A DNA stretch of 40,005 nucleotides, taken from the IMG/VR virus record IMGVR_UViG_3300005441_000013, positions 1 to 40,005 of that record; one strand, given 5' to 3'. The position numbers were made by a program, and so were the translations under genes. Positions 9,483 through 39,115 of the stretch are shown piece by piece. The stretch's first letter is position 1; every line of letters begins with the position of its first letter. The DNA is from a virus. The notes under the pieces are model-generated. The model was not told the DNA's origin. It searched no databases and saw nothing but the letters and a program-made list of their open reading frames with translations.

Positions 9483-9748
9483 TACGGCTGTACCACCGGC
9501 GCAGGGCTGTTCGTGGCCCCCGCCTGCTCGGCATTGTCGACCAGCTTCTGCGTGCTCTTCGGACTGAAGACAAAGGTCCGGATAATCGGGCCAAGCAGGA
9601 AGATGACGCCCACAAGGGGAGCCACCGACGAGATGACCGCGTTCTTCTGCTCGTCGGTAATGTCCGCCCCGAACGCGATCAGCGTGCCGATCACGGCTAC
9701 CAGGAAGGCGGTCACGGTCGAGATGATAACGGCGGGTTCAGTCTTCAT
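9482..9748 (-). CDS. Holin-like protein with two membrane segments, 88 aa
   Basis: The protein has an N-terminal hydrophobic helix (VIISTVTAFLVAVIGTLIAF, residues about 7-26), a short polar loop (ADITDEQKNAV), and a second hydrophobic helix (VAPLVGVIFLLGPIIRTFV). It then has a charged tail starting VFSPKST. This two-helix form with a TDEQ-type loop is typical of small phage holins, which open the membrane to end the infection. It lies immediately after the endolysin and a small membrane peptide and overlaps the latter by 4 bp. Confidence 0.6.
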   Translation of the reverse strand: MKTEPAVIISTVTAFLVAVIGTLIAFGADITDEQKNAVISSVAPLVGVIFLLGPIIRTFVFSPKSTQKLVDNAEQAGATNSPAPVVQP

Positions 9749-9885
9749 GAACGGAGCACTCCCGGCAGGACAATGGTCAGCGTGTCGCTATCCACCAAGA
9801 GGTCCACGACCTTGACGATGGTGATACAGACCACGATGACGATGATCAGGTAGAGCAGGTACATCAGCAACCGTTCGACGCTCAT
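9745..9885 (-). CDS. Single-pass membrane peptide of the lysis cassette, 46 aa
   Basis: The ATG at 9885 overlaps the endolysin stop by one base. Residues 6-28 (LLMYLLYLIIVIVVCITIVKV) form one hydrophobic helix, followed by an acidic stretch and a short tail. It may assist or restrain the holin. No family is recognised. The gene lies between endolysin and holin-like gene. Confidence 0.55.
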   Translation of the reverse strand: MSVERLLMYLLYLIIVIVVCITIVKVVDLLVDSDTLTIVLPGVLRS

Positions 9886-10793: not shown

Positions 10794-11268
10794 GATTGAG
10801 GTTCCCCTGAGCAAAGGCAAGGTTGCCCTCGTAGACGATATCGACGCAGACCGCGTCATGCAATTCAAGTGGTCTACCACGTGGAGCGGTAGACGATGGT
10901 ACGCATATCGCACTACTGGAGGACGGTCGCATCAACAGAGAACATACCTGCACCGATTCATCTTGGATGTCACCGAAGACGAATGGGTCGACCACGTTGA
11001 CGGCAATGGACTCGATTGCCGAAGACACAACATACGGATCGCTACTCCGTCGCAGAACGCTGCCAACTGCGGACCTAGAGCGCGAAACCGAATCGGATAC
11101 CGAGGGGTCGGTTGGAGCACCAAGGAAGGGAAGTGGATCGCTCAGATCCAATGCAACGGGAAGAAGGAACGGATCGGATGCTTTACCGATCCCGTCGAAG
11201 CAGCAAAGGCCTACGACGCCAGAGCGCGGGATCTGTTTGGTGAGTTCGCTTTCCAGAACTTTCGCTGA
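10792..11268 (+). CDS. HNH-AP2 homing endonuclease, 158 aa, antisense inside the lysis cassette
   Basis: The start at 10792 gives the usual opening of this family (IPL/VPL-x-KGKVALVDD). The HNH core is at about 54-90 (LHRFILDV, DHVDGNGLDCRRHNIRI). The AP2 DNA-binding domain spans about 103-158 (YRGVGWSTKEGKW, then EAAKAYDARARDLFGE). Such proteins cut a specific site in phage genomes that lack the gene and thus spread it. It is the only plus-strand gene within the late operon. Its start codon and the endolysin start share the same CATG, and its 3' end stops 5 bp from the next minus-strand gene. ATG at 10783 is an alternative start. Confidence 0.85.
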   Translation: MIEVPLSKGKVALVDDIDADRVMQFKWSTTWSGRRWYAYRTTGGRSHQQRTYLHRFILDVTEDEWVDHVDGNGLDCRRHNIRIATPSQNAANCGPRARNRIGYRGVGWSTKEGKWIAQIQCNGKKERIGCFTDPVEAAKAYDARARDLFGEFAFQNFR

Positions 11269-15699: not shown

Positions 15700-17793
15700 C
15701 TAGTCGCCACCAGCTTGTCCCGCTCCCTTGACGCTAAACGTATCGAACGAGCTGCCATCATCCGCGCCAGAGTGATAGAGGCCAACCCCCGTTCCGGTCA
15801 GTTGCGACTGAACGATGTAGGAGAGAATCGGCTCGTTGTTGAGAAAGGTGTGGATCATGCTGCCCACGCATTGCACCTTCAGGGTATAGGCAGTGTTGTC
15901 CGCGTAGTAGACGCCGATCATCTGCCGGGTTGTAGCGAGTGCCGACCCAGACACGATTTCCCACAACTCAATCTCATGATTCATCGGCTGACCCGGATCG
16001 ATCAGGACCCGCACGTAGATGTGGTTATTCGCATCGACTACGCGCACGGCCACTCCGGCGAGGAGGCGATCTCCGGACGGCTTGGTGGTGACCGCCACGC
16101 TCACCTCATAGTCAGCCTCTCCCGCATCAATGGTGGCGAAAAACTCCACCTCCGCCCCGTTGGTGTTGGTGTTTCGCGCCCGGTTGGAATTGATCTCCCA
16201 GCCCGAACCCTGGACCGCCCAGGTCTTGCCTCCGGTCGTCGTGGTCCGTCCGGAGAGGGGGGTGCCGTTGGCGGCGGTGAAGTCGTCGGTGGCAATCGTG
16301 CTCCCCGTCGAGAAGATGCTCGGCGTCGATCCGCTCTGGAGATCGGTCGGGAGGGTGACGGTGTGCGGGCACGCATACACGTCGTCCCAGCGAGCGCCAA
16401 CAGGCGCAACGGCCCATGATCCGAATCCGATGCCGGTCCCAGTCAGGGATGCGGCCCGCGTGTCCTGCACCCAGTCGAGCAGGACATCGCCATTGATGAT
16501 CATCTGAATGCGATCACCCTTGGTCCGAATCCGCAGATCAACAATCTGTCCCGCCGACAGCGCAAATGGGTAGTTGCCTACCACTCCGCCTGTTCCGGCG
16601 TTGACCGAATAGACCCATGCCGACCCGCTCAGGAAATAGACCATGTCGTAATTGGTGGCATCGGTATAGCGGAAGATGCACTCAATCTGGTCACTTGCGG
16701 TGGTCCCAACAGTAATCAACCAGCGCCACTCGGCATCACCGCTGGCGGCTGCCCCAGCGCGGGTGAATTGCGCCCGGCCACCACTATTCGAGACGACATA
16801 CGCCTTGCCGCTGATGACGCCGCCGACCCCACCCGAGGCGCTCCATCCTGCTCCGACAGAGGTGTTGGAGTCTGCTCGCGTAAAGCGGTCGAGGAACGAA
16901 AGCAGACCGGCATCCGTGGCCCAGGGGGTGATGGACAGAATTCGCACATCATCGAAGGCGTGCAAATGGGCCGGGCCAATGCGATCAAGCGCGCCGATAT
17001 GGGGAAACATCGGGGTCGTCGTGGTCGTATCGTCGACCCAGAAGACGCGAGCATCCGGAAACTGGGGAATGCCGGGATAGTCGTTCGAATTGAGCACGCC
17101 GGTCTTGGTGTGCGCGGCATGGCTGCTGATCAGGTAGAACGCTCCCTGCGCCCGCAGGACAACGCAGACCAGATACTCCTCTGCCCGGACCGCGCCAAAC
17201 TTGCCCACGTCGGGGGATCCGTTCAACGTGATCAACTTGCTTGGGATCGAAACGCGGGGGTATCCCTCGCTGTTGATCCAGTGATGCCCATTGGTCGTAG
17301 GATCGGTGACGGAGGTCGCGCTGGCCCAGCCAAACCCGAGATCCGCTTCCTTGTCCTGGACTTTGATGACGCCCCAGAGGGCAAGCCCATCCGCCCGCGT
17401 AAACCCAGCGTCCGCATTGTCGGTTCCGACGAACTTGCTGCTCCCCCAGGTGGGCGAGCTTGTCTGCCCTCCGCCCCGCATCGACCCGTCGATGATCTTA
17501 TACAGGCTTCCGGTCAGCACGCGCTTGCCCGGCCCCGGGTTCGCGCTGCCGCTTGTGAGCGGGTCAACATTCGCGTCGCTGAACTGATCGCGGAAGAGGA
17601 AGTTAGCAGGCATCGTCACAGTGGGAGCGGTCGCGGACAGGGCCATGGCCGAGGCGGCAGGAACCGTCACCGTCTTGGGAATCGTGGGAACGCTCGCCGC
17701 CCAGGCAATCGTCGGGCTGGTCGGGCGGATCTTCCCGTCCGGTGGCGTCGCCTTTCCGCCACTGCCAATCGGGAGGCCGATGATGATCGGCAT
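15700..17793 (-). CDS. Tail protein with three lectin-like (LamG-type) domains, 697 aa
   Basis: ATG at 17793 overlaps the previous stop (TAATG); the open frame above it is not coding. After a Pro/Thr linker come three similar beta-sandwich units starting near residues 64 (FLFRDQFSDAN), 298 (LSFLDRFTRADSN) and 502 (TDDFTAANG). Each opens with a D-x-F motif, and the last two continue with a core of Ile/Val strands ending in TGTGIGFGS or TGTGVGLYH. This is the concanavalin-like or LamG jelly-roll fold used to bind sugars. It is the best candidate for the main host-surface binding protein. Confidence 0.65.
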   Translation of the reverse strand: MPIIIGLPIGSGGKATPPDGKIRPTSPTIAWAASVPTIPKTVTVPAASAMALSATAPTVTMPANFLFRDQFSDANVDPLTSGSANPGPGKRVLTGSLYKIIDGSMRGGGQTSSPTWGSSKFVGTDNADAGFTRADGLALWGVIKVQDKEADLGFGWASATSVTDPTTNGHHWINSEGYPRVSIPSKLITLNGSPDVGKFGAVRAEEYLVCVVLRAQGAFYLISSHAAHTKTGVLNSNDYPGIPQFPDARVFWVDDTTTTTPMFPHIGALDRIGPAHLHAFDDVRILSITPWATDAGLLSFLDRFTRADSNTSVGAGWSASGGVGGVISGKAYVVSNSGGRAQFTRAGAAASGDAEWRWLITVGTTASDQIECIFRYTDATNYDMVYFLSGSAWVYSVNAGTGGVVGNYPFALSAGQIVDLRIRTKGDRIQMIINGDVLLDWVQDTRAASLTGTGIGFGSWAVAPVGARWDDVYACPHTVTLPTDLQSGSTPSIFSTGSTIATDDFTAANGTPLSGRTTTTGGKTWAVQGSGWEINSNRARNTNTNGAEVEFFATIDAGEADYEVSVAVTTKPSGDRLLAGVAVRVVDANNHIYVRVLIDPGQPMNHEIELWEIVSGSALATTRQMIGVYYADNTAYTLKVQCVGSMIHTFLNNEPILSYIVQSQLTGTGVGLYHSGADDGSSFDTFSVKGAGQAGGD

Positions 17794-18233
17794 TACGGCA
17801 CCGTCTGGGTCAGGATACCCGCAGCGGGCCAGACGATATCGACTGTTTGCGCGGCCCACGAGGTGTTCACGCCGAGATCGATCCACAACAGGATCGGACT
17901 GGTGGCATCGACCGCCGTCTGGTAGTCGATCACCGCGAAGTAGCGCACGTTGGTCAGGGTCGTGGTCGCATTGCTGATATCGTCGGCGTCGAGCTTGGTC
18001 GTCTTGACACCGTCATCGGTGGTGGTCTTGTTGGCGAGGGCGATCCCATTCGCCGCCCATCCGGTGCCGGTCAGTTCGGCGGCCCGGATCGAGCTGAGGT
18101 AGATCGTGGTCGCCTGGGTGAAGGAGGCCGAGGAACTAAACGCCATCACGCGGATGTTGTCCGAGTCCCAGTCCACCTCCTTGTTGGCGATCTTGCTGCA
18201 CGCTTTGGTGGGGATGGTGACGGTAACGGCCAT
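17793..18233 (-). CDS. Small phage virion protein of the VDWDSD-x-I-x-V-x family, 146 aa
   Basis: The pattern KEVDWDSDNIRVMAFS, AAELTGTGWAANGIAL, KLDADDISNATTTLTNVRYFAVIDY and SPILLWIDLG is well known in short beta-rich phage structural proteins that often sit between the capsid and tail-fibre genes. Its precise position in the particle is not known to me. ATG at 18233 overlaps the previous stop and has GGGAG 7 bases upstream. Confidence 0.55.
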   Translation of the reverse strand: MAVTVTIPTKACSKIANKEVDWDSDNIRVMAFSSSASFTQATTIYLSSIRAAELTGTGWAANGIALANKTTTDDGVKTTKLDADDISNATTTLTNVRYFAVIDYQTAVDATSPILLWIDLGVNTSWAAQTVDIVWPAAGILTQTVP

Positions 18234-21823: not shown

Positions 21824-24800
21824 CTACCCGATATAGTCCTTCAACAAATAGGAGAGCGGGCTGCCGGTGCCGGATGTCGCGCCGGTTTTCTTCTCCTTGC
21901 GCCGCCACGGGAACTGGTCCTGGTTGTACTGGCGGGCGCGATCCCGGATGAACGATCCCACATCCTCGACCGGACCGCGTAACCGGGCATTGTCCGCCGC
22001 CTGGTTGGCCTTCTTTTCGGACGTATCGGCCGCCGTCCCGACATCTTCCTGCCACGGCGGCAGGTTGTTGATGTTGAAGAGGGGTGCGCCGGGATCGGCC
22101 CGGTCCTTCCACTGCCAGCCCTGCATCGCGGCGTAGGACTCCGGCGAGCGGAACCACTGTTCCATCTCGGCCTGCAACGCCGGACCTTTCACCCCCTGCG
22201 AGCGCAGGTAGTCCTCATGGCGGTGGTAGGCCCGGCTGAACTCGGTGTCACCCACGGCCAGCATCTTCGTGATCGTGGTCGGAACATCGACCTCGTCCTT
22301 GTAGCTCCACGAGCGGAAAGTGAGGTAGTCGTCGATCTCCGGATGCTCGGCCCGCACCTGTTCCCGCTTCCCGGCCAGAGAGGCGTTCGGGTTATCGCGC
22401 AGGTAATCGGGACCGGACGCTTTCGCGCCGACCGCGATCCCCGCCTCGGTCTGCTGCTCGGCCGCCCACTGATAAGCGAGATCCTGGCGCTCCTCGTCCG
22501 TCATATTCTTGATGTCGGACCCGGAGTAGGTTTTCCCACCGATGGTGGCCGTCCACCAGTCGGGGATCTCGTCGTAGCCCAGCGTGATCTGGTTCATGCC
22601 ATCCTGGATCTGCTGCTCGGAGAGCGATCCCGCCGCGTTGTAGTCATTCATGCCGCGCTGAAGGGACTGTCCCTCGGCCGACTGGATCGAGGCGATGTCT
22701 TGCGCCGCGACCTGTGCGGCCTGCTCCGGCGTGCGCTGGTCGTACGGCACGTCCTTGGCCTGCCGAACCTCCTCCTTACGCTGGTTGGTCGCGGCGTCCT
22801 GGACGTAGGCGTCGGAGGGAATCAACGCATTCCCGGCTGAGGAGGCCATGTTGAGGTTGGTGTACTCCTCAATCGCGGCATCGACATCGTCGTTCTGCTC
22901 GCCCATCAGGAGGGCGTTCTGGGCAGCGGCGAGTCGGTCGGCATCCCAGTCTTCCTGATCGGCATTGGTGACGAGGATGTCCATGATTGCCTGGCGGGAC
23001 CGGCTGTTGGAGTCGGCCGCCTTGAAATCGCTGATCGGCGCGTTGAGGTCGCGCAAGGCCGCATTGGCCGCGTCGACGATCCCGTTGACGATGTCCTGGG
23101 CTAGGTTCGGGGTGGGCAGCCCATTGTTGGCCTTGTCCCAGCCGTGCTCGCGACCGAAATCCGAGAACCTGATCTGGTCGATGGCATTGAGGACCATCTT
23201 CTCGATCTGGCCGGTGCCGAACGGGTTTCCCGCATTGGCCTCACCGATGATCGCCAGTGCCGTTTTCCACATCGGGTTCATGAAGAGACCGGTGCTGTTC
23301 AGGATCTCCTCGATCCGGGACTGCGAGTAGCCGCCGTCGCCGATGCCCTGAAAGGTTGCCAGCCGGGAAACGAACTGGAAGGGATTGGTATAGAGAACAT
23401 GGCCGTCGCCCAGGCCGAAGGCGACGAATCCCTTCATCCAGGTTGGCGTGCCGGGATAATCGTTGAGGCTGGCTTGGCTCGCTTTCCAGATCTCGTGCTC
23501 CATCGTGATCAGTTGCGGATGCTGGAGCATCAGCTTGACGTAGAGCGCCGACGAGCGGGTCATGTAGTAGTGGAAGAGGAAGACCTTGCTGATCGCGTCG
23601 TCGATCTTCGTCTTCTTGTAAGTGAACATCACCGTGCGCTGGGCCTTGTTGGCGCGGGCCGAAAGGTCGTCCACCTGCTTCGCCCAGGTCCGGGCGTAAG
23701 AGTCGTCCGTCACGTACTTCTTGGTGATCGTGCGAATCTCCTCAGGACTGAAGGAGCGACCGGCATTGAAGCGTTCGGTGATCAGGCGCGAGACTTCATC
23801 CTCCATCGCCTTCGGCGCTTTGCCCGCCCGCGTCTTGGATCGCACGAAGTCGAGGAACTTGCCCTGCTCGTAGGGCAGCTCTTCCCCAAACTTGTTGAGG
23901 TAAATGGCGTGGCGGAAGGCGTTGTCGTTCGAGTTGCGGATGCGCTTGATCCAGTAGGAGCTGAGCGGGTTGGGAATCTTTCCCCGCTTGGTGACGTTGC
24001 GGGCCACCTCCTCCCGACCGACGGTGTGTGAGATGTCGGTCGGGAGAAAACTGATGCCCGATTCCTTGACCCCGCTAAAGAGCGGGTGATTGATCATCTG
24101 CACTTCGTCCAGATCATCTTTCACGAAGGTCCACATCAGATCCGGCACGTAGCGGGCGGACCCCGCCTCCCCGGCAATCGTCGCCAGTTGCAGGTTGCCG
24201 ACCACGTCCTTGAAGACCGCCTTCGGCCCCGTCACCACATTGAACTGGAGGATGGAGCGGTTCGCACCGAGCACCTTCTTGATGTTGCGGGCAATCGCCG
24301 CGTCCCGGTGCCCCTTCGGCGTGAGGTCTTTGATCGTCTCCAGCAAGGCCGTCTCGTGCTCGGTATTGAGCATCGCCCGTAATTCGTCGACCCCTTCTTC
24401 CGTGGTCGGGAATCCCTCCTTCGCCAGCCGCGTTTCCCGCTTCTTGACGATGGGTTCGAGCCGTTCCTGGTAGCGGTTCCAGACATTCGTGGTCACCGTC
24501 TCGTCGACCCCGTTGACGGTGCGGGTGTAGAGCCGTGGCTCCAGCAAGACATCAACCTGGCGCTGGGGAATGCTGTGGGTGGTGATCATGTCGAGGAGAT
24601 CGTCAGGATTCTTGATCTTCTCCCGGGACAGGCCGTGGACGTAGATGGTCGCTTCCCTGGCCTCGTCGGCCGGAGAGAGCGGGTCCTTGATAATCTTGCG
24701 GATGCCCTGCCCGATCTTGGCGCGGGTCGCGTTGTAGAGCTGGGATGCGGCATCGGCCGGGTCGTTGATGATGCCCACCGTGCCCGGTCCTCGCTTGCCC

Positions 24801-27800
24801 GATTTCGGGTGGGGCGTTTCGTCCCTGAGGCGGCTGACCTCGTCATGCCACGCCTTCTTCTCGGCAGCGGTAAGATCGCTTGGCAACTGATAGTTGTGGG
24901 CGGTACGAGCGGCACGACGAGAGACATCAGGATCGGCGCTTTGAATGCGCTCCCGGAACATCTCCATGTCTTGCTGCACGGAATCGGGAAGATCGGCGAA
25001 CGAAACGGGTGCGTTAGGATCACGAAACGGAACCTGCTCGGCCGCCGCACTCAGGGATTCCCCGTGAGCCTCGCCAACCAGTTCCCGCCAGCGCCGCTCC
25101 AGCGCATTCGCCAGCGTCTCATTGCTGATGCGCAGGGCTGGGTCCGTGGCATCCGCCATGATCTGTCCAGTGCGGCCGCGAATCTTGGCGATGGCCGCCG
25201 CGTGGTCCGCCTCGTTGTCGCCGAGGAGGGCGTGCTCGATCCATGAGCGCGGATCGGTCGGACTCATCTTTCCGGAACGGGTATCGAAGCGGCGGGTATT
25301 GATTGGCGATCCCCGCTGGAACGTGTCTTGGACCAGCTTCTCGGCGCGCGCATCATAGCCTGCCCGCACCAGCGTCGACTCCGGAGTGTTGAGGCGGGTC
25401 GGGGTAACGCCGGTGCCCTCATCATGCAGCTTGCGCACGGTGGCGTTGCGGATCTCCTCCTCGCGCAGCATCTGCTCTTTGGCGAGCGGATCGTAGGAGG
25501 CGCGGAATCGTTCCAGCGCGGCAGGATCGCTCGCCCCGTAGGTTTCGTCGATGAAGCGCGCGAGATTGTCCGACTGCTTATTGGCATAGCTGGCATCGAG
25601 GTAGGAATGCGTGATCGGCTCATCGATCAGTTGGCCGCCCCGGGCGACGGTGCGGGTCGTGTCGACACTGATGCGCGGCCCCGTGGTCGGTGCGGGCGTG
25701 GCATCGATAACCCGCATCTGGATCGATCCATCACCCCGGATACGGGCCGCTCCAGTCCGGTTCGTGCCTTCGATCAGGTAATAGGTGTCGCCATCAAAGA
25801 CCGCAATCGGCACATCGGCGGTTTCGCTGATCAGATTCGGATTGTCGATGTAAGATTGCAACTTCTCCGGCACAAAATCGGCCTGGGTGGCGACGATCTT
25901 CGCATCGGTGGGAACATCGCGAATCGGGACATTTGCCTCAGTCAGATATTGACTACTGAGGGTATTGGCATTGTCATCAATCGCCTGCTGAACATTGGTC
26001 GGTAACTCCTCGTCCAGCCGGTAGGAGCCGTCAAAGATGGAATCAACGGTCGGCTGGGCCACAGCCTGATCAGCGGCGCGGGCGAGATCGGCGGCTACCT
26101 GCTCGGCATCGGTGCGGGTGGCAATGGTCGCGTTGATCTTCTTCAGGCGATTCGTCTGGGTCGTGGTCAGGGTGTCCGCCGCTTGCAGGGCATCCCGTTC
26201 CGCCATCAACTCCGTGGTGCTCATCGGATCAGTCGCGGGGCCACCCTTGCGCTTGGCGATCCGTTCCTCAGCCTTGGCCGCCCACGAGTCGTACTCGGCC
26301 TGACGCTGGGCCACGGAATCGAGCGTGCTGCCCGGTGGTGGCGGGGTTGGTTGGTTCCCGGCAGATCGCCTGCCCTTCATTTGGGCATCGCGGCGTTCGA
26401 TGGAGGCGGCGCGACGTTGTTCGGCAGCTCGGGCGGCGGCATCGGCCTGGTTCTGGGCGGCGGCGGCTTCGTTCTTGTAGCGGGCAAACTCTTCTTCCGA
26501 TCCCTGCCCGGCGCGAATGATGTCCGCCCCTTCCTGAACGCCTTCGGTGGTGGTCTGCTCGGTCGCAGCGCGGCCATATCCCGCACCCGGAAGCCGACGA
26601 GCGCCCCAGCCCAGCGACTTCCACAATTGCTCGAAGGGATAGGAGAGGGGATCGCCCGCTGCCTTCAGGACTTCTCCACCGACCGACATGGCCTTGGCCG
26701 CTCGTAATGCCGCCTGGCCTTCTTCCGCCGTCTTGACCCCGCTCGCGACCTCCTCGGCCGTGCGCATGCTGCGCGCCAGAGCAGCTCCCTTCAATCCTTT
26801 GCCCGCAACACCAAGCCCTAGTGCCCAGTTGAGGGGGTCCATGATCAGGGAGGAGCCGAAGGACCACCACGGTCCGACGGTCTCGGTGTACCAGGTAAAG
26901 AGGCCTTCCGATCCGCCCGCCTCATAGGCGCGCTTGGCCGCATCCCACTGCTCGGGGTGCTCCTGCAAGTAGGTGAGCATGGTCAGGGAGGCCATCGGGT
27001 TGTCGCTATGGGCCTGCTGGTAGATCAGCACCTGCTGATCGCGGGGCGTATTGATCCACTCATCGTAGGTCAGGCCCGATCCATCGGGCGGCATCGCCAA
27101 CTGGACATCGGTCAGGTCCGGCTGGGTGCCGAAGTAGCGGGCCACGTAGGTGCCGGGATCGCCGAAGTCCGAGGGCAGCTCGCCGTTGTGGGTCATCATG
27201 TAGTAGGTGGCATCGGCCATCTGCTTCTGGTTCTCGTGCTCTGCCCAGCCCGCGATCTTGACGGCGGTATTGACGCCCTTCTCGACCACCTGACCGGGCG
27301 GGGACTCGCGCGCCGCGTTGAACCCGGAGCGGAGATTGGTCCACCCTCGATTGAGCGCGGTATCGAATCCGCCCGATTCTCCGAGTGCCGGGTTGTAGTA
27401 CACCTGCCACGCCGCGTCTTTTTGCTCCGGCGTCATCTTGTCCCACTGTTCTTGCGGGATGGTAACGCCCGGCGGCGGACTGGCGGTCCGCTGGGTTGGG
27501 CTGGCCTGCGCCCCATTCGGATTGCCCGCCGCCTGCCACGCTGCCTGGCGCTGTTCAATCGTCATCTGCGCCCATTGCTGCGGGGTCAGATTGACGCCCG
27601 GTGGCGGGGAGGCGTAGGGATCGGCAGGCGGCGGTTGGGCCGGTTGCTGCTGCGCCTGCGGGGCGGTCTGCTGCGGAGCGGACGGAGCCTGCGTAGTGGT
27701 CAGCTCACGGTAGAGATTGGCGTAGGCCGAGGCGAACGACGCCGGGTCCATGGTCTGTGCGGCCGGGCTATTCAGGAACATGTCCATCGCCTGCTGGGGC

Positions 27801-28252
27801 GTGAACGTCCCTCCTGTCACCCCAGGACCGGGCTGGACCGCTGGCGGTTGCGCTTGCGGCATGGGCGCGGCGTACTGGCGGGTCTGCTGGGATGGATCGT
27901 CCAGACCTCGCACCCGAAGATCAGGGCGGCTGATGTACTGCGGAGGCACGGGCGCGGTCACGTTCTGGACCGGATTGGTTGGATCATCGGCCGCTTGGGC
28001 CAGCATCGCAGCCCGGCTCTGGTCCTGCATCATCTGCATGGCAGCGGCAGGATCGGCCCTCGGCGGCAGGGCCTGGGCGGTCTGGCGACGGGCCATCATC
28101 TGATTGAAGAGATCCTGGGCACGCGGCGTCGGCATCGCTTGGTTGGGCACCACCATCGCCCGCTGGCCCATCGGCTGTGTGGCCGCCTGCGTACGGGCGG
28201 CGAGATCCTGCAAGAAGCGTTCGGCCAGCCTGTTGAGATCGCGATCTGCCAT
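21824..28252 (-). CDS. Giant virion-type/polyvalent-like protein with ParB-like segment, 2142 aa
   Basis: ATG at 28252 overlaps the previous stop (TGATG). The first 300 residues are Pro/Gln-rich with two tandem copies, near 216 and 258, of a PPPGV...QW..MT.EQ..AAWQ unit. A hydrophobic segment (WWSFGSSLIMDPLNWALGLG) lies near 465. Residues about 770-850 look like a ParB/sulfiredoxin-type fold (VPIAVFDGDTYYLIEGTNRT). A conserved-looking block FTYKKTKIDDAISKVFLFHY is near 1540, and the C-terminal third is helical and polar. Large proteins of this kind are packed in the head and ejected with the DNA. The adjacent transglycosylase-NlpC gene supports that; a tape-measure role cannot be excluded. 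Confidence 0.55.
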   Translation of the reverse strand: MADRDLNRLAERFLQDLAARTQAATQPMGQRAMVVPNQAMPTPRAQDLFNQMMARRQTAQALPPRADPAAAMQMMQDQSRAAMLAQAADDPTNPVQNVTAPVPPQYISRPDLRVRGLDDPSQQTRQYAAPMPQAQPPAVQPGPGVTGGTFTPQQAMDMFLNSPAAQTMDPASFASAYANLYRELTTTQAPSAPQQTAPQAQQQPAQPPPADPYASPPPGVNLTPQQWAQMTIEQRQAAWQAAGNPNGAQASPTQRTASPPPGVTIPQEQWDKMTPEQKDAAWQVYYNPALGESGGFDTALNRGWTNLRSGFNAARESPPGQVVEKGVNTAVKIAGWAEHENQKQMADATYYMMTHNGELPSDFGDPGTYVARYFGTQPDLTDVQLAMPPDGSGLTYDEWINTPRDQQVLIYQQAHSDNPMASLTMLTYLQEHPEQWDAAKRAYEAGGSEGLFTWYTETVGPWWSFGSSLIMDPLNWALGLGVAGKGLKGAALARSMRTAEEVASGVKTAEEGQAALRAAKAMSVGGEVLKAAGDPLSYPFEQLWKSLGWGARRLPGAGYGRAATEQTTTEGVQEGADIIRAGQGSEEEFARYKNEAAAAQNQADAAARAAEQRRAASIERRDAQMKGRRSAGNQPTPPPPGSTLDSVAQRQAEYDSWAAKAEERIAKRKGGPATDPMSTTELMAERDALQAADTLTTTQTNRLKKINATIATRTDAEQVAADLARAADQAVAQPTVDSIFDGSYRLDEELPTNVQQAIDDNANTLSSQYLTEANVPIRDVPTDAKIVATQADFVPEKLQSYIDNPNLISETADVPIAVFDGDTYYLIEGTNRTGAARIRGDGSIQMRVIDATPAPTTGPRISVDTTRTVARGGQLIDEPITHSYLDASYANKQSDNLARFIDETYGASDPAALERFRASYDPLAKEQMLREEEIRNATVRKLHDEGTGVTPTRLNTPESTLVRAGYDARAEKLVQDTFQRGSPINTRRFDTRSGKMSPTDPRSWIEHALLGDNEADHAAAIAKIRGRTGQIMADATDPALRISNETLANALERRWRELVGEAHGESLSAAAEQVPFRDPNAPVSFADLPDSVQQDMEMFRERIQSADPDVSRRAARTAHNYQLPSDLTAAEKKAWHDEVSRLRDETPHPKSGKRGPGTVGIINDPADAASQLYNATRAKIGQGIRKIIKDPLSPADEAREATIYVHGLSREKIKNPDDLLDMITTHSIPQRQVDVLLEPRLYTRTVNGVDETVTTNVWNRYQERLEPIVKKRETRLAKEGFPTTEEGVDELRAMLNTEHETALLETIKDLTPKGHRDAAIARNIKKVLGANRSILQFNVVTGPKAVFKDVVGNLQLATIAGEAGSARYVPDLMWTFVKDDLDEVQMINHPLFSGVKESGISFLPTDISHTVGREEVARNVTKRGKIPNPLSSYWIKRIRNSNDNAFRHAIYLNKFGEELPYEQGKFLDFVRSKTRAGKAPKAMEDEVSRLITERFNAGRSFSPEEIRTITKKYVTDDSYARTWAKQVDDLSARANKAQRTVMFTYKKTKIDDAISKVFLFHYYMTRSSALYVKLMLQHPQLITMEHEIWKASQASLNDYPGTPTWMKGFVAFGLGDGHVLYTNPFQFVSRLATFQGIGDGGYSQSRIEEILNSTGLFMNPMWKTALAIIGEANAGNPFGTGQIEKMVLNAIDQIRFSDFGREHGWDKANNGLPTPNLAQDIVNGIVDAANAALRDLNAPISDFKAADSNSRSRQAIMDILVTNADQEDWDADRLAAAQNALLMGEQNDDVDAAIEEYTNLNMASSAGNALIPSDAYVQDAATNQRKEEVRQAKDVPYDQRTPEQAAQVAAQDIASIQSAEGQSLQRGMNDYNAAGSLSEQQIQDGMNQITLGYDEIPDWWTATIGGKTYSGSDIKNMTDEERQDLAYQWAAEQQTEAGIAVGAKASGPDYLRDNPNASLAGKREQVRAEHPEIDDYLTFRSWSYKDEVDVPTTITKMLAVGDTEFSRAYHRHEDYLRSQGVKGPALQAEMEQWFRSPESYAAMQGWQWKDRADPGAPLFNINNLPPWQEDVGTAADTSEKKANQAADNARLRGPVEDVGSFIRDRARQYNQDQFPWRRKEKKTGATSGTGSPLSYLLKDYIG

Positions 28253-29583
28253 CACGCGGCCATCAGGTATTGCAGCATGCGCTGCGAGAAGGGTTGCCGT
28301 CCCGAGCCGGTGCCGTAGCCCGCGCCGGGCGATCCCGCTCCCCCGGACCAGCTCATCCGCCGCCCGCCCAAAAAGGAGTACATGCCCATGTAGTCACTGA
28401 GGTTGCTGACGATGGTGCCCGCTCCCGGATTGGCTGCCTGCACGAACTGTCCATTGCCAATATACATCCCGACGTGCCCGGCCCGGTTCAGGTTGGCTCC
28501 GCCTCCGGCCGTGTTTCCTGTATCGAAAAAGACCAGGTCGCCGGCGCGGAGCTGGTTTGGGTCGCGGACGAGGAGTCCCTTGTTGAGGGTGTCCTGGTAC
28601 TGGTAATGAGAACCGGCAGGGAGTTCGTTAGATCCAAAAGAATCGTCGAGCCAATTAACAAACGCGGAACAGTCCCAGCCGGTCTGCCAGGGGTCCTGTC
28701 CCGGCGACGGAAGCGATCCCCAGACATACGGAACCCCCACGTACTGCAAGGCTTTCTCGACAATGCCACTGCCCATTCCTCCATCACCATAGGAGCGCAC
28801 ATCGTAGCCCCCGGAGTAGCCGCCCTGCTGATCGAACTGCTTCCAGAGGTTAACCACCTTCGAGCCGTAGGTGTTGGAATCCATGCCCAGCTCGTCGGTG
28901 AATCCCCCGGACAGCGCACCAGGACCGCCGAAATACACCTTCGCCGCGTTCTCGTAGCCGCCATACTGGGAGGCCAGTCCGTTCAGGATCTTCGCCATGC
29001 CCGCAATCTGGGCCTGCTTGTTGCCGATCATCTGATCGAAATCGAGTCCCCACGCCTCCGCCGTCTTGCGGAAGATGCCGACAAAGGGCAGAATCTGGTC
29101 ATTGCGGAATCCGCCATAGACGCGGTTGTCGCGGTCCCAGTTGCCGGATGATTCCTGGTTGATCATCGCCTTCAGGAGATTGGCGGGGACCCCGTACTGG
29201 GAGGCGGCGGCGTTGATCTCGGCGTTGTGGGCATCGAGGGCGGCATAGCCCGTCTGCCCGGCCGCCGCGCCCTGGAGTCCCATCTGCGATCCGGCCTGAC
29301 CCTGGTCCTGTTGCCCGTAGCCGCCGAAGTCAACGTACTTGTTGGCGATGCCGAGCGTGCCCCCCTGCCCGCCGACCCCACTGACGTAGCGGTTGGAGGC
29401 ATCGAGGGCGGCCTGACCCTGATCGGCGAGGAGGCCGGAGGGGTCGTAGGGGTTGGCGACATCGACCGCCTGAAAGCCCTGGCTGAAACGGTTGAGCTGC
29501 TTGCCGAAATCGGCGAGGCGTCCGGTTTGCTGGGTGCGGATCGGGTCAAATCCGGCCAGCGCGTTGAAGGCCGGGAGGACCAT
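28252..29583 (-). CDS. Virion peptidoglycan hydrolase: lytic transglycosylase plus NlpC/P60, 443 aa
   Basis: ATG at 29583 follows GGGG by 7 bases; GTG at 29586 is an alternative. Residues 122-225 form a soluble-lytic-transglycosylase (SLT) domain with catalytic Glu144 in MINQESSGNW. Residues about 272-400 form an NlpC/P60 cysteine peptidase with Cys305 (GWDCSAFVNW), His370 (RAGHVGMYIG) and a possible third residue Asn385. The first cleaves glycan strands and the second cuts stem peptides. The gene sits among virion genes, away from the lysis cassette, so it most likely opens the cell wall at DNA entry. Confidence 0.85.
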   Translation of the reverse strand: MVLPAFNALAGFDPIRTQQTGRLADFGKQLNRFSQGFQAVDVANPYDPSGLLADQGQAALDASNRYVSGVGGQGGTLGIANKYVDFGGYGQQDQGQAGSQMGLQGAAAGQTGYAALDAHNAEINAAASQYGVPANLLKAMINQESSGNWDRDNRVYGGFRNDQILPFVGIFRKTAEAWGLDFDQMIGNKQAQIAGMAKILNGLASQYGGYENAAKVYFGGPGALSGGFTDELGMDSNTYGSKVVNLWKQFDQQGGYSGGYDVRSYGDGGMGSGIVEKALQYVGVPYVWGSLPSPGQDPWQTGWDCSAFVNWLDDSFGSNELPAGSHYQYQDTLNKGLLVRDPNQLRAGDLVFFDTGNTAGGGANLNRAGHVGMYIGNGQFVQAANPGAGTIVSNLSDYMGMYSFLGGRRMSWSGGAGSPGAGYGTGSGRQPFSQRMLQYLMAA

Positions 29584-33352: not shown

Positions 33353-35148
33353 CAGGCAATCTCCCGCAGGTGGCGGCCGCGCCCGAAGCGGGGACCGGAG
33401 GCGATCTCGATCTCGGCGGCTTCCTTCATATGGGCCTCGCGGGCCAGGGCGTCCTGGGTCAGGTAATCCTTCATCTGGCGATTCACGGCCCAGTACTCCA
33501 GTGCGGAGGTGTAGTGCGTCGTCTTGTCTCGCAGCATACCATGTTCGGGAATCTTTCCTGAGCGGCTCGGCTCGGGCAGGCGGTTGTTCTGCAAGGCCAC
33601 CAATGCCTGGCGCGCCCCGATGCTGTCCCCGAAGCGGAGGCGGGGCATGATCCAGCGCATCGCCTTGCGGCGGCCGACGTGGGTCCGGGCCTGCATGCGG
33701 TAGGCCGCGACCTTGCCGTTGGGCAGGCGGTCGGCATTGACGCGGACGCCGTGATTGCGGCGCCAGACCGAGTACCAGGAATCGGCCGACGCGCCCTGGC
33801 GGTTATCGCCGTAGGTATCGCCGTAATAGATCGGCAGGGTCTTCGCCCCATCGGTGAGGTCGGCCATCCAACTGATGATCTCCTCGTCGTAGGGGGTGTA
33901 CTCCCAATCGCCCATGATCGGCTTGCCGGAGAGATCGACCAGCGATCCGGTGATGATCGGCCCGTAGAAGGCGGCCTCCTGCTTGTTGTTGGTGTAGCCA
34001 CCGAGCACGTCGTACCAGCCGTCGGCCACATTCTGCTGGATCACGACCATCGCGAAGGCGTCCTCGAAGCCGGGGTCGATGCCCACCTCCAACGGGTTGC
34101 CACGAAAGAAGAGGAGTTCGGGGACCGGCATCTTCTCCCGCGCCGTGGGGTAGACGTACTGCGAGGTGGTGAGCGGGTTGCGCATGATCTCGCGCTCCCA
34201 GCCATCGGGGTCGGCGGCGTAGCGGCGTTGCTGGCGGTCGTACCAGTCATCGTCGTGGAGGGGATTCTCCCACCAGTCCATCGTGAACAGGGCCGGGCGG
34301 AACTCCATGTCGATGCCGTGGCTGAGGTTGTAGAAATCGTCGCCCTGGTCCATCGACTCGGTCGAGACCAGAAAGCGGTGATCGGCCACATCGGTCAACC
34401 CGGTCCAGACATCGAGCAGGCCCGGGATCTGGGCGGCCTCGTCGGGGAATGCCACGGTAGCGCGGTCGCCGCGCCCGGACTTGCTGGTGGTCGACTCGCC
34501 CGAGATGGTGTTGCCATTCTCGGGGTTGTGGAAAAAGAGCTTCATGCGGTGGCGGGAGGCGGAAAATCCCCGGGGCCGGAGGAAGCTGGGCAAGTACTTG
34601 AGGACCTGGTCCATCTTCCAGAAGAGGGCGCGGGGCTTGCGGGAGTCGACGTACTCCTCCTTCCACGACATGCACAGCGCCTGGAAGTTGGGCGTGAAGA
34701 GCCAGTCCGCGAGGATGCAGTAGGCAATGGTCCACGACGCGCCCATGTCGCGAGACTTGCTGACCACGGCATCGGCGTTCTCATCCTGCTGGGTCTTGAC
34801 CCAGTCGTAAAAGCGGACGAGCTGGGCCTGGCGCTCGAAGGGGATCCAGGGAATGTAGCCGCCACGGCGGCCGTGGGCGCGGGGTTCGAAGAGGTAGCCG
34901 TAGACGGTCATCAGATAGAGCTTGTCCATCTGGCATTTGCGGCGCTCGATCTCCTCGAACTCGCGGTAATCGCGGACCCGCTGCAAGGTGTCGACGCGGT
35001 ACTGGAGAATACGCACGGACCACTCGTGCCACGCCTGGCGCTTGGCGACGCGGTCGGGATCGTCGGGTCCACTGGGGTCCGGGGGAATGGTCGCTAAGGC
35101 AGGCGGCAGGCCGAGGATGACGACGGGATCGCGGGTGTCACTGCTCAC
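33352..35148 (-). CDS. terL: Terminase large subunit, 598 aa
   Basis: The ATPase motifs are visible: a Walker-A variant KSRDMGAS at 131-138, of the type seen in phage terminases, Walker B TVAFPDEAA at 231-239 with Asp236-Glu237, and the coupling-type motif FLVSTES near 261. The C-terminal RNase-H-like nuclease is indicated by VGIDPGFEDAF near 350 and YYGDTYGDN near 437. The enzyme pumps DNA into the procapsid through the portal and cuts it. GTG at 35148 is chosen because it gives a short overlap (11 bp) with the preceding gene; GTG at 35190 is possible. The ribosome binding site is weak for both. Confidence 0.85.
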   Translation of the reverse strand: MSSDTRDPVVILGLPPALATIPPDPSGPDDPDRVAKRQAWHEWSVRILQYRVDTLQRVRDYREFEEIERRKCQMDKLYLMTVYGYLFEPRAHGRRGGYIPWIPFERQAQLVRFYDWVKTQQDENADAVVSKSRDMGASWTIAYCILADWLFTPNFQALCMSWKEEYVDSRKPRALFWKMDQVLKYLPSFLRPRGFSASRHRMKLFFHNPENGNTISGESTTSKSGRGDRATVAFPDEAAQIPGLLDVWTGLTDVADHRFLVSTESMDQGDDFYNLSHGIDMEFRPALFTMDWWENPLHDDDWYDRQQRRYAADPDGWEREIMRNPLTTSQYVYPTAREKMPVPELLFFRGNPLEVGIDPGFEDAFAMVVIQQNVADGWYDVLGGYTNNKQEAAFYGPIITGSLVDLSGKPIMGDWEYTPYDEEIISWMADLTDGAKTLPIYYGDTYGDNRQGASADSWYSVWRRNHGVRVNADRLPNGKVAAYRMQARTHVGRRKAMRWIMPRLRFGDSIGARQALVALQNNRLPEPSRSGKIPEHGMLRDKTTHYTSALEYWAVNRQMKDYLTQDALAREAHMKEAAEIEIASGPRFGRGRHLREIA

Positions 35149-35353
35149 GGAATTGTCGGATCGCCTCGCGGATGCGCTCCGCCTCCTCACCTTCGCCGGT
35201 TACGTTCCCGGCCTGGTCGATGGTATAGGAGGTACGGGCACGACCCACGGTAATCTCCTCCAGCCCGGCGACCACACGCAAGGTCGTGCCGCGCACGCCT
35301 CGACTATACAGGTATCTCTCCAGATGTTCCAAATCGAGGGGCTTGCGGTACAT
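35138..35353 (-). CDS. Hypothetical protein upstream of terminase, 71 aa
   Basis: ATG at 35353 gives MYRKPLDLEHLERYLYSRGV followed by an Ig-like beta segment (TTLRVVAGLEEITVGRARTSY) and a helix GEEAERIREAIRQFRE. It lies where a small terminase might be expected, but it is too short and has no helix-turn-helix I can see. It may be an unrecognised packaging accessory. Confidence 0.5.
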   Translation of the reverse strand: MYRKPLDLEHLERYLYSRGVRGTTLRVVAGLEEITVGRARTSYTIDQAGNVTGEGEEAERIREAIRQFREQ

Positions 35354-36282: not shown

Positions 36283-36459
36283 CTATGAAACCTTGTCACT
36301 TGTTCCGGCTGTTCGGCGGTGCCGGACCTTCCGCTTTCGTTTGTGGGCCTTCGGTTTCTCGTCTTCGGGAGTGGACCCGTACTCCTTGGACCAGCGGCGG
36401 GCGATCTCCGGGTGTTTGCTCCACAGAAACCGGCGCTGCTTCTCACTCTTGAACGGCAT
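36283..36459 (-). CDS. Small basic phage protein (MPFKSEKQRRFLW type), 58 aa
   Basis: The start MPFKSEKQRRFLWSKHPEIA is a well-known signature of short basic phage proteins found near packaging and head genes in many genomes. A following WSKEYG and a very basic C-terminal half (KAHKRKRKVRHRRT) support nucleic-acid binding. The stop at 36285-36283 abuts the next gene's ATG at 36282. The exact role is not established to my knowledge. Confidence 0.65.
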   Translation of the reverse strand: MPFKSEKQRRFLWSKHPEIARRWSKEYGSTPEDEKPKAHKRKRKVRHRRTAGTSDKVS

Positions 36460-36468
36460 GGCGCGTCC

Positions 36469-36861
36469 TCAACAGAGGATACGGTACGCGGATACCCACG
36501 TCCCGTAGACGCTACTCCAGCCCCATGTTCGCTGTTGACAGTAGGCCAGGTTGGCGACCCCCGACGCCACGATCTTGTTCGCCCCGACCCCGGACCAGGT
36601 CACGCAGGCATAGACCGTGCCCGCCGTGTTCTGGAGGCAGGATTGCAGCGTGACCGAGCCGCAGCCTTGGGCGCTCATGAACCCCCGGTAGCCGCCGTTG
36701 TTCCAGGCCGGTGCGCCGATGGCGATGGTGCAGGCGGCACTGGCCTGCTCGACCCCGATGGGTTGCGGGAACGTCAGGGAAGTGGTGCCGACCTGAGTGC
36801 CAAGCGCGCCGATGCCAACCACCGAAAGGACGATGGCAATGGCAAGCAGGAATCGTTTCAT
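36469..36861 (-). CDS. Secreted cysteine-containing protein A, 130 aa
   Basis: The N terminus is a classical signal peptide: MKRFLLAIAIVLSVVGIGAL, then a Ser/Ala-rich stretch with a probable cleavage after ASA near residue 42. The mature part has six cysteines (AAC, GCG, SCL, ACV, YCQ and a final LC) suited to disulphides, and is Gly/Trp/Ser-rich. It is the third of three neighbouring genes with MKR starts and signal peptides, and it lies within the late operon. It is probably exported to the cell surface, but its role is unknown. Confidence 0.6.
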   Translation of the reverse strand: MKRFLLAIAIVLSVVGIGALGTQVGTTSLTFPQPIGVEQASAACTIAIGAPAWNNGGYRGFMSAQGCGSVTLQSCLQNTAGTVYACVTWSGVGANKIVASGVANLAYCQQRTWGWSSVYGTWVSAYRILC

Positions 36862-36870
36862 CGCATCCTC

Positions 36871-37311
36871 CTAGTCGATGCCGTAATTACAGTTGGCGAC
36901 CCAGTTCTGGTAGCCGTAGCCCGAGTATTCGGACCCGTCCTCTCCTTTAAAGTAGTACCAGCCGTAGGCCGAGTAGACGGTTCCGAGATTGATGCCGTGG
37001 CACTCGGCCGTGGTGGTCCCGGTGGTGGCCGCGCTATAGACGTCGGTGTCGCAATCCCACCAGGTGCCGTTGATGACGATACAGGCCTGGAGGACGCGCG
37101 AGCCGGGATCACCCGCCGCACAGGAAAAGCCGCCGCTGCCGTAGACGGTGGACTGGCCGCCCGGCCGCCACGCGCCGTTGGACCACGAGGTACAGCCCGC
37201 TTCGGCCATGGCCTGCTGCACCGTCAGCAGGCCGGGTTTCGGTCCCGGCACCACGGAGAGGACCGGGACGAGGGAGAGGACAATCAGGACCGCGATCAGG
37301 ATGCGTTTCAT
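36871..37311 (-). CDS. Secreted cysteine-containing protein B, 146 aa
   Basis: A signal peptide (MKRILIAVLIVLSLVPVLSV) is followed by a probable cleavage near AMAEAG at about 35-39. The mature protein starts with C at 40 and holds about six cysteines in the pattern C...C...C...C...C...C, with many Tyr/Trp/Gly residues (YSAYGWYYFKGEDGSEYSGY). It is the middle gene of a tandem trio. The start at 37311 lies 1 base after the previous stop. Confidence 0.6.
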   Translation of the reverse strand: MKRILIAVLIVLSLVPVLSVVPGPKPGLLTVQQAMAEAGCTSWSNGAWRPGGQSTVYGSGGFSCAAGDPGSRVLQACIVINGTWWDCDTDVYSAATTGTTTAECHGINLGTVYSAYGWYYFKGEDGSEYSGYGYQNWVANCNYGID

Positions 37312-37312
37312 C

Positions 37313-37723
37313 TCAACACCTCGGCAGGTACTTGGTTGGTCCGTACCAGTTCCAGACGAATCCAGATGAACTGGTCAGTTGGACGCGGATATAGGACGGG
37401 TAGGGACCGGCGTACTGGATCTGGCAACTGGGGCTTGACCAGAGGACCTTGTTCGTGCCGGTCGTCGTCCCGGATGCCCGCGATACCCCATCCTGAATGA
37501 TGTAGACCCGCAGGGTGCGGTAGAGGACGGTGCCGCACTCGATCACGCCCTGCCCGATGATGTAGTTCCCGGACGTGCCGAGACTGGTCGAGGTCAGCCA
37601 GCACGAGTCCGCCGCCGCCGACTGGGGTCCCAGCGAGCGCAACGCGGTGGGGCCACCGGTCAGGGCGAATCCGGGCAGGATCACGGCGCATGCAATGGCA
37701 AGCGCAATCAGGATACGTTTCAT
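37313..37723 (-). CDS. Secreted cysteine-containing protein C, 136 aa
   Basis: ATG at 37723 has GGAGG 6 bases upstream; the frame above it is not coding. The signal peptide is MKRILIALAIACAVILPGF, with a probable cleavage near SAAADS (about 37-39). The mature part has Cys at the start, IECG, PSCQ and a C-terminal PRC. It is beta-rich with LYRTLRVYIIQDG, like small exported beta-sandwich proteins. Its signal peptide closely matches that of protein B, which supports duplication. Confidence 0.6.
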   Translation of the reverse strand: MKRILIALAIACAVILPGFALTGGPTALRSLGPQSAAADSCWLTSTSLGTSGNYIIGQGVIECGTVLYRTLRVYIIQDGVSRASGTTTGTNKVLWSSPSCQIQYAGPYPSYIRVQLTSSSGFVWNWYGPTKYLPRC

Positions 37724-37727
37724 GGGA

Positions 37728-37985
37728 TTACCTCCGGTTGGCGCAGCGGTCGAGCCACGCCCCAAATTCGGCCACGGACCACCCGCGCGGGCGGCCCTTC
37801 TCCGCGATCTCGCGACAGATCTCCTCCTCACACTGGTTGCGTTTTGCCGTCTGTTCGGCCATAACGGAGACGAGCAGCACGATGCCGATAATGGCGAGGA
37901 CCCAGAGCGGATTGATCCCGCTCCACATCCCCGGATCGCCCGTGTTCGTCGGATCCGGGGGGTTCGCCTCGTAGCCTGAGATCAT
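37728..37985 (-). CDS. Single-pass membrane protein, 85 aa
   Basis: ATG at 37985 has GGGAGAA about 5 bases upstream. After a polar Pro/Asn-rich start comes one membrane helix (PLWVLAIIGIVLLVSVMA, about 31-48) and a soluble C-terminal part with two or three cysteines (NQCEEEICREIAEKG) and WSVAEFGAWLDRC. It may work with the secreted proteins encoded just after it. Out-of-frame coding overlap with 37828-38076 means one of the two may not be real over that stretch; this gene is the better supported. Confidence 0.5.
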   Translation of the reverse strand: MISGYEANPPDPTNTGDPGMWSGINPLWVLAIIGIVLLVSVMAEQTAKRNQCEEEICREIAEKGRPRGWSVAEFGAWLDRCANRR

Positions 37986-38076
37986 CGTAGTTCTCCCATC
38001 GTGTCCCGTCCCATCGCCACGTTCTGCCGTCATCGCCTTCGCAGTAGAGGGCATCGCCCCAGACGGCGCAATTCAT
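37828..38076 (-). CDS. Doubtful overlapping ORF, 82 aa
   Basis: ATG at 38076 overlaps the previous stop (ATGA) and the first 30 residues (MNCAVWGDALYCEGDDGRTW, then WDGTRWENYDD) look like a real small protein with a WDG-x-RW motif. The later part is Arg/Gly/His-rich and runs over 158 bp of the membrane-protein gene in another frame. Either the real end is misjudged, or the stretches truly overlap. Confidence 0.35.
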   Translation of the reverse strand: MNCAVWGDALYCEGDDGRTWRWDGTRWENYDDLRLRGEPPGSDEHGRSGDVERDQSALGPRHYRHRAARLRYGRTDGKTQPV

Positions 38077-38207
38077 ATCCGGAATCCCGACCAGCGTTTC
38101 TCGCATCGGGTGCATTTCAGACTGAAGAGACACGCAAGACCAGGACATCCCACGATCCGTTCGAACGGCCAGTCGTGGCGACCGATCAGGCAGCGAAGAT
38201 CCTTCAT
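38073..38207 (-). CDS. Small cysteine-rich protein, 44 aa
   Basis: ATG at 38207 overlaps the previous stop by 4 bp (ATGA), and its stop overlaps the next ATG. The protein reads MKDLRCLIGRHDWPFERIVG and then has CPGLAC and CTRC before a basic end, a probable zinc-binding site of the two-knuckle type. It is short but fits the coupled chain exactly. The function is unknown. Confidence 0.5.
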   Translation of the reverse strand: MKDLRCLIGRHDWPFERIVGCPGLACLFSLKCTRCEKRWSGFRI

Positions 38208-38407
38208 GTCGGTTTCTCCACCCTGCGGACCAGTAATCGGTTGCCGCCGAGGGCCTTGACGAAGCGGTAGACGATGTTGTTGCCGACCTGGATCTCATGC
38301 CCTTGCAGGTTCTTGGTCCAGTACTCGGGGTGCTGAACCTCGATAATGGTGAGTCCTTCGCCCCGGTCGACTCGTCGTCCCCGGTTTCCGCTCTCGTCAT
38401 TCCTCAT
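38204..38407 (-). CDS. Hypothetical protein, 67 aa
   Basis: The start at 38407 overlaps the previous stop (ATGA). The N terminus is charged (MRNDESGNRGRRVDRGEG) and the rest is a small beta domain (IEVQHPEYW, VGNNIVYRFVKALGGNRLLV). It has no recognised motif. Confidence 0.5.
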   Translation of the reverse strand: MRNDESGNRGRRVDRGEGLTIIEVQHPEYWTKNLQGHEIQVGNNIVYRFVKALGGNRLLVRRVEKPT

Positions 38408-38634
38408 CGGGTGAGGACCGTGGCCCGTCCGATGGGCGTCTCGACCTCGCGCTGGCCCTCCCAGCCCATCATCTTCCGGGTTTTGGCCCGTAATCGCATG
38501 ACAAAGGGCTCGCCGTGGGGGTTGAGTGAGGCTCCATGGGTCCGCAGGTACTCCAGAAAGCGGTCGGGATCGAGATACTCGGTGCTGAAACTGATCGTAC
38601 CTTCCGGTAATTCGACGGTGTCATACCATTTCAT
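38404..38634 (-). CDS. Hypothetical protein, 76 aa
   Basis: ATG at 38634 gives MKWYDTVELPEGTISFSTEY. It overlaps the upstream gene by 14 bp. The protein has a beta start and a basic C-terminal part with KTRKMMGWEGQREVETPIG. No family is recognised. Confidence 0.5.
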   Translation of the reverse strand: MKWYDTVELPEGTISFSTEYLDPDRFLEYLRTHGASLNPHGEPFVMRLRAKTRKMMGWEGQREVETPIGRATVLTR

Positions 38635-38836
38635 CCGTTTTCTCCTCCAGGAGCGCCAGGGCATCGGTCATCACCTCCAGTTCAGCCACGCGATCCCCCT
38701 CGGGACCCTCGCCGGTCAGCTTGGCCCGGGCCACGGTCGAATCGAGGAGGTCTTCATAGCGGAGGCGGAGGGTGCGAATCCGGCTCATCCGGGCCTGGAG
38801 CGCGCTCTGGCGCTCGGTGTCAGTCGGGGTCGTCAT
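38621..38836 (-). CDS. Small helical protein, 71 aa
   Basis: It begins with a polar stretch and has two long helices (SRIRTLRLRYEDLLDS, AELEVMTDALALLEEKTDE) that probably form a coiled coil. The start at 38836 overlaps the previous gene by 17 bp. Its function is unknown. Confidence 0.5.
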   Translation of the reverse strand: MTTPTDTERQSALQARMSRIRTLRLRYEDLLDSTVARAKLTGEGPEGDRVAELEVMTDALALLEEKTDEMV

Positions 38837-39026
38837 TGATCGCCTCCGAAAGGGTCAGAATGCGGTCCATCTGGCGCTGTTTCTGGTCCAACTGGGCCTT
38901 GAGGCGGGCGACATCGGCCTCGGCGTCGTCGAGGGCGTCCTTGTCCCGGGTCCACGCGGCTTTCAGATCGGCCAACAGGTCGGCATTGGCCTCCAGCACT
39001 TTCTGTTTCTTCGGGTTTGGTGGCAT
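38820..39026 (-). CDS. First gene of the late operon: coiled-coil protein, 68 aa
   Basis: ATG at 39026 has AAGGAGGA 5-6 bases upstream. It starts MPPNPKKQKVLEANADLLAD and is helical throughout, with a heptad run DALDDAEADVARLKAQLDQK. It is the first gene after the promoter at 39045-39073 and the predicted transcript start would be only about a dozen bases before its ATG. The function is unknown. Confidence 0.55.
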   Translation of the reverse strand: MPPNPKKQKVLEANADLLADLKAAWTRDKDALDDAEADVARLKAQLDQKQRQMDRILTLSEAINDDPD

Positions 39027-39044
39027 GGGATCCTCCTTGGCGGC

Positions 39045-39073
39045 ACTATACGAGTCGTATATCGGAGTGTCAA
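39045..39073 (-). promoter_or_regulatory. Near-consensus leftward promoter TTGACA-N17-TATAGT
   Basis: On the minus strand TTGACA (39073-39068) is separated by exactly 17 bases from TATAGT (39050-39045). This is a strong primary-sigma-factor promoter. Transcription would start near 39038 and read the whole minus-strand operon, beginning at the gene of 39026. A 15-bp palindrome covers most of the -10 box and the adjacent spacer, so repressor control is likely. Confidence 0.8.
39047..39061. promoter_or_regulatory. 15-bp perfect palindrome overlapping the -10 box (operator candidate)
   Basis: TATACGA-G-TCGTATA is a perfect inverted repeat with 7-bp arms and one central base. It covers four of the six -10 bases of the leftward promoter and the spacer next to it, where a bound protein would block RNA polymerase. 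The half-site core TACGA recurs at 39074-39078 beside the second palindrome. Confidence 0.65.
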
Positions 39074-39075
39074 TA

Positions 39076-39083
39076 CGATATCG
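39076..39083. promoter_or_regulatory. 8-bp palindrome CGATATCG between two facing TTGACA boxes
   Basis: CGATATCG lies midway between the leftward -35 (39068-39073) and a rightward TTGACA (39087-39092). The two boxes are themselves an inverted pair centred within half a base of this palindrome, which gives the region dyad symmetry around position 39080. Confidence 0.5.
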
Positions 39084-39086
39084 CAT

Positions 39087-39115
39087 TTGACAGCCATGCG
39101 ATGATATGGGTAACC
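39087..39115 (+). promoter_or_regulatory. Possible rightward promoter with TTGACA and weak -10
   Basis: TTGACA at 39087-39092 is perfect. At 17 bases the next hexamer is GTAACC (39110-39115), which is a poor -10, preceded by TG at 39107-39108 (extended -10 position). If used, it would start a transcript near 39122 carrying the 13-bp hairpin and reading the 39198 gene. Confidence 0.35.

Follow-up and report, generated by a model that had tools for sequence, protein, structure and literature searches.

Gene content and organization of the locus

The window, that is, the whole stretch of 40,005 bases analysed here, is an IMG/VR virus record and a metagenome contig, presumably from soil. On the minus strand lies a long operon that includes genes for a terminase, a lysin-containing tail protein, the capsid and other structural components. 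The largest open reading frame of the window (2143 aa, 21824-28255) lies on this strand, and the structural operon also encodes a 728-aa protein (15700-17886) with a borderline match to PF06439 (3-keto-disaccharide hydrolase). Outside the operon, we noted a VRR-NUC nuclease resembling Holliday junction resolvases (4544-4942, plus strand) and a helicase-loader-like protein (396-1067), the latter identified by a weaker match (PHROG E 3e-4).

In the order of transcription, the genes 5' of the terminase encode a membrane protein of 85 aa, three proteins that we call A, B and C, a 58-aa MPFKSEKQRRFLW protein and a 220-aa protein (Table 1). A first-pass annotation had placed three tandem genes here, preceded by a membrane-protein gene in the same operon. 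All four genes were recovered; A, B and C lie on the minus strand, and each starts with ATG behind a purine-rich ribosome site. The gaps between A, B and C are 1 and 9 bases. Throughout the array the spacing is 1 to 9 bases on one strand, with ribosome sites that in some cases lie within the preceding gene, and the shared operon is supported. The array opens the packaging and structural operon, which looks late, and its genes would be expressed late in infection. On its coding strand we found no promoter-like or terminator-like site in a scan for sigma-70-type promoters and terminators, the counts of which were at chance level. The GC content and third-position GC of the array genes match those of the rest of the phage and thus give no hint that the genes were imported recently.

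Table 1. Features of the array and its surroundings (coordinates refer to the window, except for gene X of the sister contig L002)
Feature	Position	Strand	Description
Gene A	37313-37723	minus	136 aa; Sec-type signal with cleavage at about residue 38; mature part of 98 aa, 4 Cys
Gene B	36871-37311	minus	146 aa; Sec-type signal (AMA-E); mature part of ~110 aa, 6 Cys
Gene C	36469-36861	minus	130 aa; Sec-type signal (ASA-A); mature part of 88 aa, 6 Cys
85-aa protein	37728-37985	minus	one membrane helix; directly upstream of A, inside the divergent island
58-aa MPFKSEKQRRFLW family protein	36283-36459	minus	downstream border of the array; family widespread in phages
Promoter-like site	39045-39073	minus	11/12 match to the sigma-70 consensus, upstream of the operon; such a match alone is no evidence of function
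Junction between membrane gene and A	37720-37727	minus	site of X in L002, from comparison with L002
Divergent recombining island	36290-38080	minus	~7.7% mismatches plus gene gain and loss relative to L002; ~0.8% in the flanks
Gene X	L002:1920-2219		99 aa; Tat-type twin-arginine motif SRRDILR; short, very Cys-rich mature part

Export signals

Each of the three proteins has a lysine/arginine-containing n-region, a hydrophobic core and an A-x-A motif ahead of its first cysteine. The signals were judged by sequence inspection and with a home-made scan that looked for a basic start followed by a hydrophobic core and A-x-A, together with an ATG and a ribosome site. The earlier description of signal peptides with Ala-x-Ala cleavage regions followed by cysteine-containing mature parts thus holds for all three, and from these features we infer that the proteins are exported and form disulfides. 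In the first version of the scan, A, B and C were the only signal-peptide matches of the window with a ribosome site. A looser version added two unrelated open reading frames, apparently spurious, one of which is partly antisense to C. With that looser version, triplet-shuffled windows contained a mean of 1.1 signal-peptide open reading frames, and a tandem pair arose in none of 20 shuffles. The home-made scan found no other tandem signal-peptide genes in the 40-kb contig. By eye, none of the three proteins has a lipobox, as the first cysteine lies at least ~20 residues past the hydrophobic core and is preceded by ADS, EAG or SAA.

Relationships among the proteins

Sequence comparison shows B and C to be homologous (BLASTP E 1e-6, hhalign E 2.7e-7), from the signal through the first half of the mature part. 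Their mature domains also resemble each other in a global comparison (shuffle p 0.003). The membership of A in this family is less certain. A joins B and C chiefly through its signal part, its mature part adds weak support (p 0.02-0.05), and no clear sequence homology links the mature parts of A and C. The duplication put forward in the first-pass annotation is thus upheld for B and C. Its statement that the signal peptides of B and C are almost the same went too far, since these share about 10 of their first 17 residues; A and B are identical over the first seven. A cysteine framework common to A, B and C is suggestive only (Monte Carlo p 0.03-0.12). No homology was detectable between A, B or C and X, the additional protein of the sister phage described below.

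Structure prediction, one of the checks that had been proposed, gave low-confidence AlphaFold2 models (mean pLDDT ~59) in which the mature domain of C is all-beta and that of A almost wholly so. Foldseek searches with both models returned no match below E 0.001. The lowest E value was 0.009, and immunoglobulin (Ig)-like folds were among the best matches, including sandwiches with TM scores up to 0.58 for A, non-significant, and many nanobodies for C at E ~1 and above. On these models, A and C are perhaps Ig-like.

Gene turnover in a sister phage

A single sister of the locus was found, the 5.6-kb IMG/VR contig L002, which also stems from a metagenome assembly. There the membrane gene is followed by X, A and C in that order. 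The contig lacks B, and X, which carries a Tat-type instead of a Sec-type signal, precedes A as an extra gene. Looking for the trio in other phages, as had been proposed, thus had a negative outcome in the only close relative. As L002 does not keep the trio, the latter represents one state of a variable array rather than a fixed three-part machine. With only one sister contig, this turnover rests on a single comparison of metagenome assemblies.

The two phages are ~99% identical in the flanks and ~92% identical in an island around the array, whose divergence is roughly nine times the flank value. The island takes in the membrane gene and the MPFKSEK gene. The flanks themselves (38200-39100 and 33850-35200) display alternating blocks of zero and ~3-6% divergence relative to L002, as in recombining phage populations.

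The genes retained in both phages are under constraint. A and its counterpart are 96% identical with a dN/dS of 0.23, and C and its counterpart are 95% identical with a dN/dS of 0.08. The differences lie mainly at silent sites, which indicates purifying selection and hence that A and C are real, selected genes. In C, silent divergence is 0.45 in the signal part and 0.17 in the mature part, values that rest on few sites and would fit an exchange close to the starts of genes. The sequence ATGAAACG opens A, B and C of the window as well as C of L002, and in L002 A is joined directly to C at the start of the latter, so the seam may be this short common start. All the joins of L002 fall at gene starts, and every reading frame is intact. 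Altogether, we read the locus as a cassette array of putatively exported orphan proteins whose genes recombine.

Searches for relatives and probable host

A, B, C and X have no match in Pfam, PADLOC or 50,697 phage records. Searches with A, B and C in PHROGs, NCBIfam and PDB sequences were likewise negative, and C has no match among plasmids and none in a scan of GTDB genomes, as far as these were covered. To the extent that IMG/VR was searched, queries with A, B, X, the capsid and the membrane gene turned up L002 or nothing. Within the phylum of G001 we also searched 297 genomes; G001 is a Nitriliruptoraceae metagenome-assembled genome and hence by its name a member of the Actinomycetota. Matches there were at chance level: seven for C (E up to 0.02), none for A or B, two for the membrane gene and four weak ones for X, three of them with stop codons.

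We further compared 251 loci (84 plus 167), most of which had been retrieved via distant terminase and MPF-type relatives. Arrays of this kind occur among them only in the window itself and in L002, and no similar arrays accompany the distant terminase relatives (~30% identity). The other tandem matches (L030, L090, L122, L149, L152 and L240) look different. The one in L090 (10093-11185), from a bacterial genome bin, is a tandem pair of secreted two-Cys proteins near a terminase-like gene. The two are apparent paralogs, and we saw nothing in their sequences that resembles A, B or C.

Both the tail lysin and the amidase of the phage are similar to Streptomyces phage proteins, and for the tail lysin the similarity extends to Bacillus and Listeria phages. 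These similarities make a Gram-positive-type bacterium the probable host. A Chloroflexota host was also considered, on the basis of signal types.

Proposed role of the array

Several observations support the reading of the locus as a variable array of exported phage proteins with a role at the cell surface: the tandem export signals, the gene turnover in L002, the divergence of the island, the purifying selection on A and C, the all-beta models of these two and the rarity of such arrays among the 251 loci compared. The precedents discussed below support it as well. We give this reading as a whole a probability of roughly 0.5. The swapping of genes points to fast-changing proteins aimed at the outer surface of the host. 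An Ig-like fold, late timing and surface binding are inferred parts of this reading.

A mechanism can be proposed along the following lines. Small proteins would be made late in infection and sent across the host membrane by the Sec machinery for A, B and C or by the Tat machinery for X in the sister phage. The 85-aa membrane protein is a possible membrane partner in this. Outside the cell, the Sec proteins would probably fold as small, disulfide-stapled beta-sandwich (Ig-like) domains, which would be soluble and stay at or near the cell surface. There they would most likely attach to components of the surface or the wall and cover them, thereby stopping sibling or rival phages from adsorbing to the infected cell or to its debris. 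Recombination at gene boundaries would add or remove genes, so that the set could be matched to changing hosts and rivals. Taken on its own, a role of the array in superinfection exclusion or receptor masking is a tentative proposal, held at less than even odds. Exclusion proteins are often made early, and an operon that looks late argues against this role, as does a position next to the terminase instead of the receptor-binding or lysogeny genes.

It is likewise less probable than not, though conceivable, that the array works as a rack of cassettes, in which the common ATGAAACG... export-signal starts and the gene borders serve as seams for exchanging whole secreted binding domains, of Sec or Tat type, between near-identical phages. 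If so, the set of surface-acting proteins would differ from one phage to the next. A rack of soluble exported domains that lie in tandem and recombine would suggest that some phages can change the surface-acting proteins they carry. It offers small orphan families that are open to testing and likely to act outside the cell, and the stretch from the membrane gene to the MPFKSEK gene is a place to seek further cassettes.

Comparison with known exported phage proteins

Known exported phage exclusion and conversion proteins are mostly single genes, and most known exclusion proteins have a lipobox. As A, B and C do not, they fall outside the class of exclusion lipoproteins, and they have no sequence match to known exclusion families in Pfam, PHROG, NCBIfam, PADLOC or the phage records. 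The missing lipobox does not speak against a lipoprotein-like mode of working. Small exported phage proteins that act in exclusion have established precedents. Among them, Llp of T5 and Cor of T1-like phages block the receptor for further phages (PMC9586334). Llp and Cor are nevertheless lipoproteins encoded by single genes, whereas A, B and C belong to a variable multi-gene array and have no sequence match with them. Moreover, the llp gene of T5 lies beside that of the receptor-binding protein, whereas the array lies beside the terminase. As for Gram-positive hosts, Ltp of the Streptococcus thermophilus phage TP-J34 is located on the outer side of the cell membrane and stops superinfection (PMC3952083). 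Unlike the array proteins, which lack a lipobox and belong to a late operon, Ltp is a lipoprotein of the lysogeny module expressed from the prophage. Glo of Vibrio cholerae, as cited in PMC3952083, is a soluble periplasmic exclusion protein. It resembles the array proteins in being soluble, exported and free of a lipid anchor, but is encoded by a single gene and acts in another type of host.

Phage Ig-like domains of the BACON type and similar ones (PMC6949934, PMC9853417) are beta-sandwiches thought to bind carbohydrates. They are parts of virion proteins, whereas those of the array would be free exported domains, with a fold that is a low-confidence prediction.

Alternative explanations

The proteins might instead act on other bacteria or on the surroundings, as small secreted cysteine-containing effectors that inhibit competitors, proteases or lysins near the infected cell. 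Their features would suit such effectors, as they are soluble, free of a lipobox, possibly stapled by cysteines, orphan and turning over, and X is a very Cys-rich small protein. Nevertheless, no toxin, bacteriocin or inhibitor family of the family libraries was matched, and a cell about to lyse gains little from inhibiting its neighbours unless the phage is temperate; no integrase was detected among the part of the window genes that was scanned. We therefore regard effectors of this type as unlikely.

The array could also consist of morons for lysogenic conversion or surface remodelling, which would alter the envelope of the carrier cell and not block phages. Whole-gene gain and loss between near-identical phages is typical of morons, and this is the pattern observed, as L002 lacks B and carries X. 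However, the genes are packed 1-9 bases apart in a late operon, the scan showed no convincing promoter or terminator that would be theirs alone, and their GC composition matches that of the phage. These traits leave the moron explanation with a low probability.

Although exported phage proteins can regulate lysis, as does the T4 antiholin RI (PMC8385771), the exported lysis helpers suggested in the first-pass annotation, or regulators of lysis timing, are very improbable here, since the amidase and an adjacent small membrane protein that could be a holin are encoded 26 kb away (9482-10913) and the gene set varies between sister phages, which would be unusual for a core lysis function. It is also very unlikely that the difference between the arrays is an assembly artefact of a strain-rich metagenome, even though the window and L002 are both metagenome contigs, because the joins in L002 coincide with the starts of genes, no reading frame is broken, and most differences in the retained genes are synonymous, as in real strain variants.
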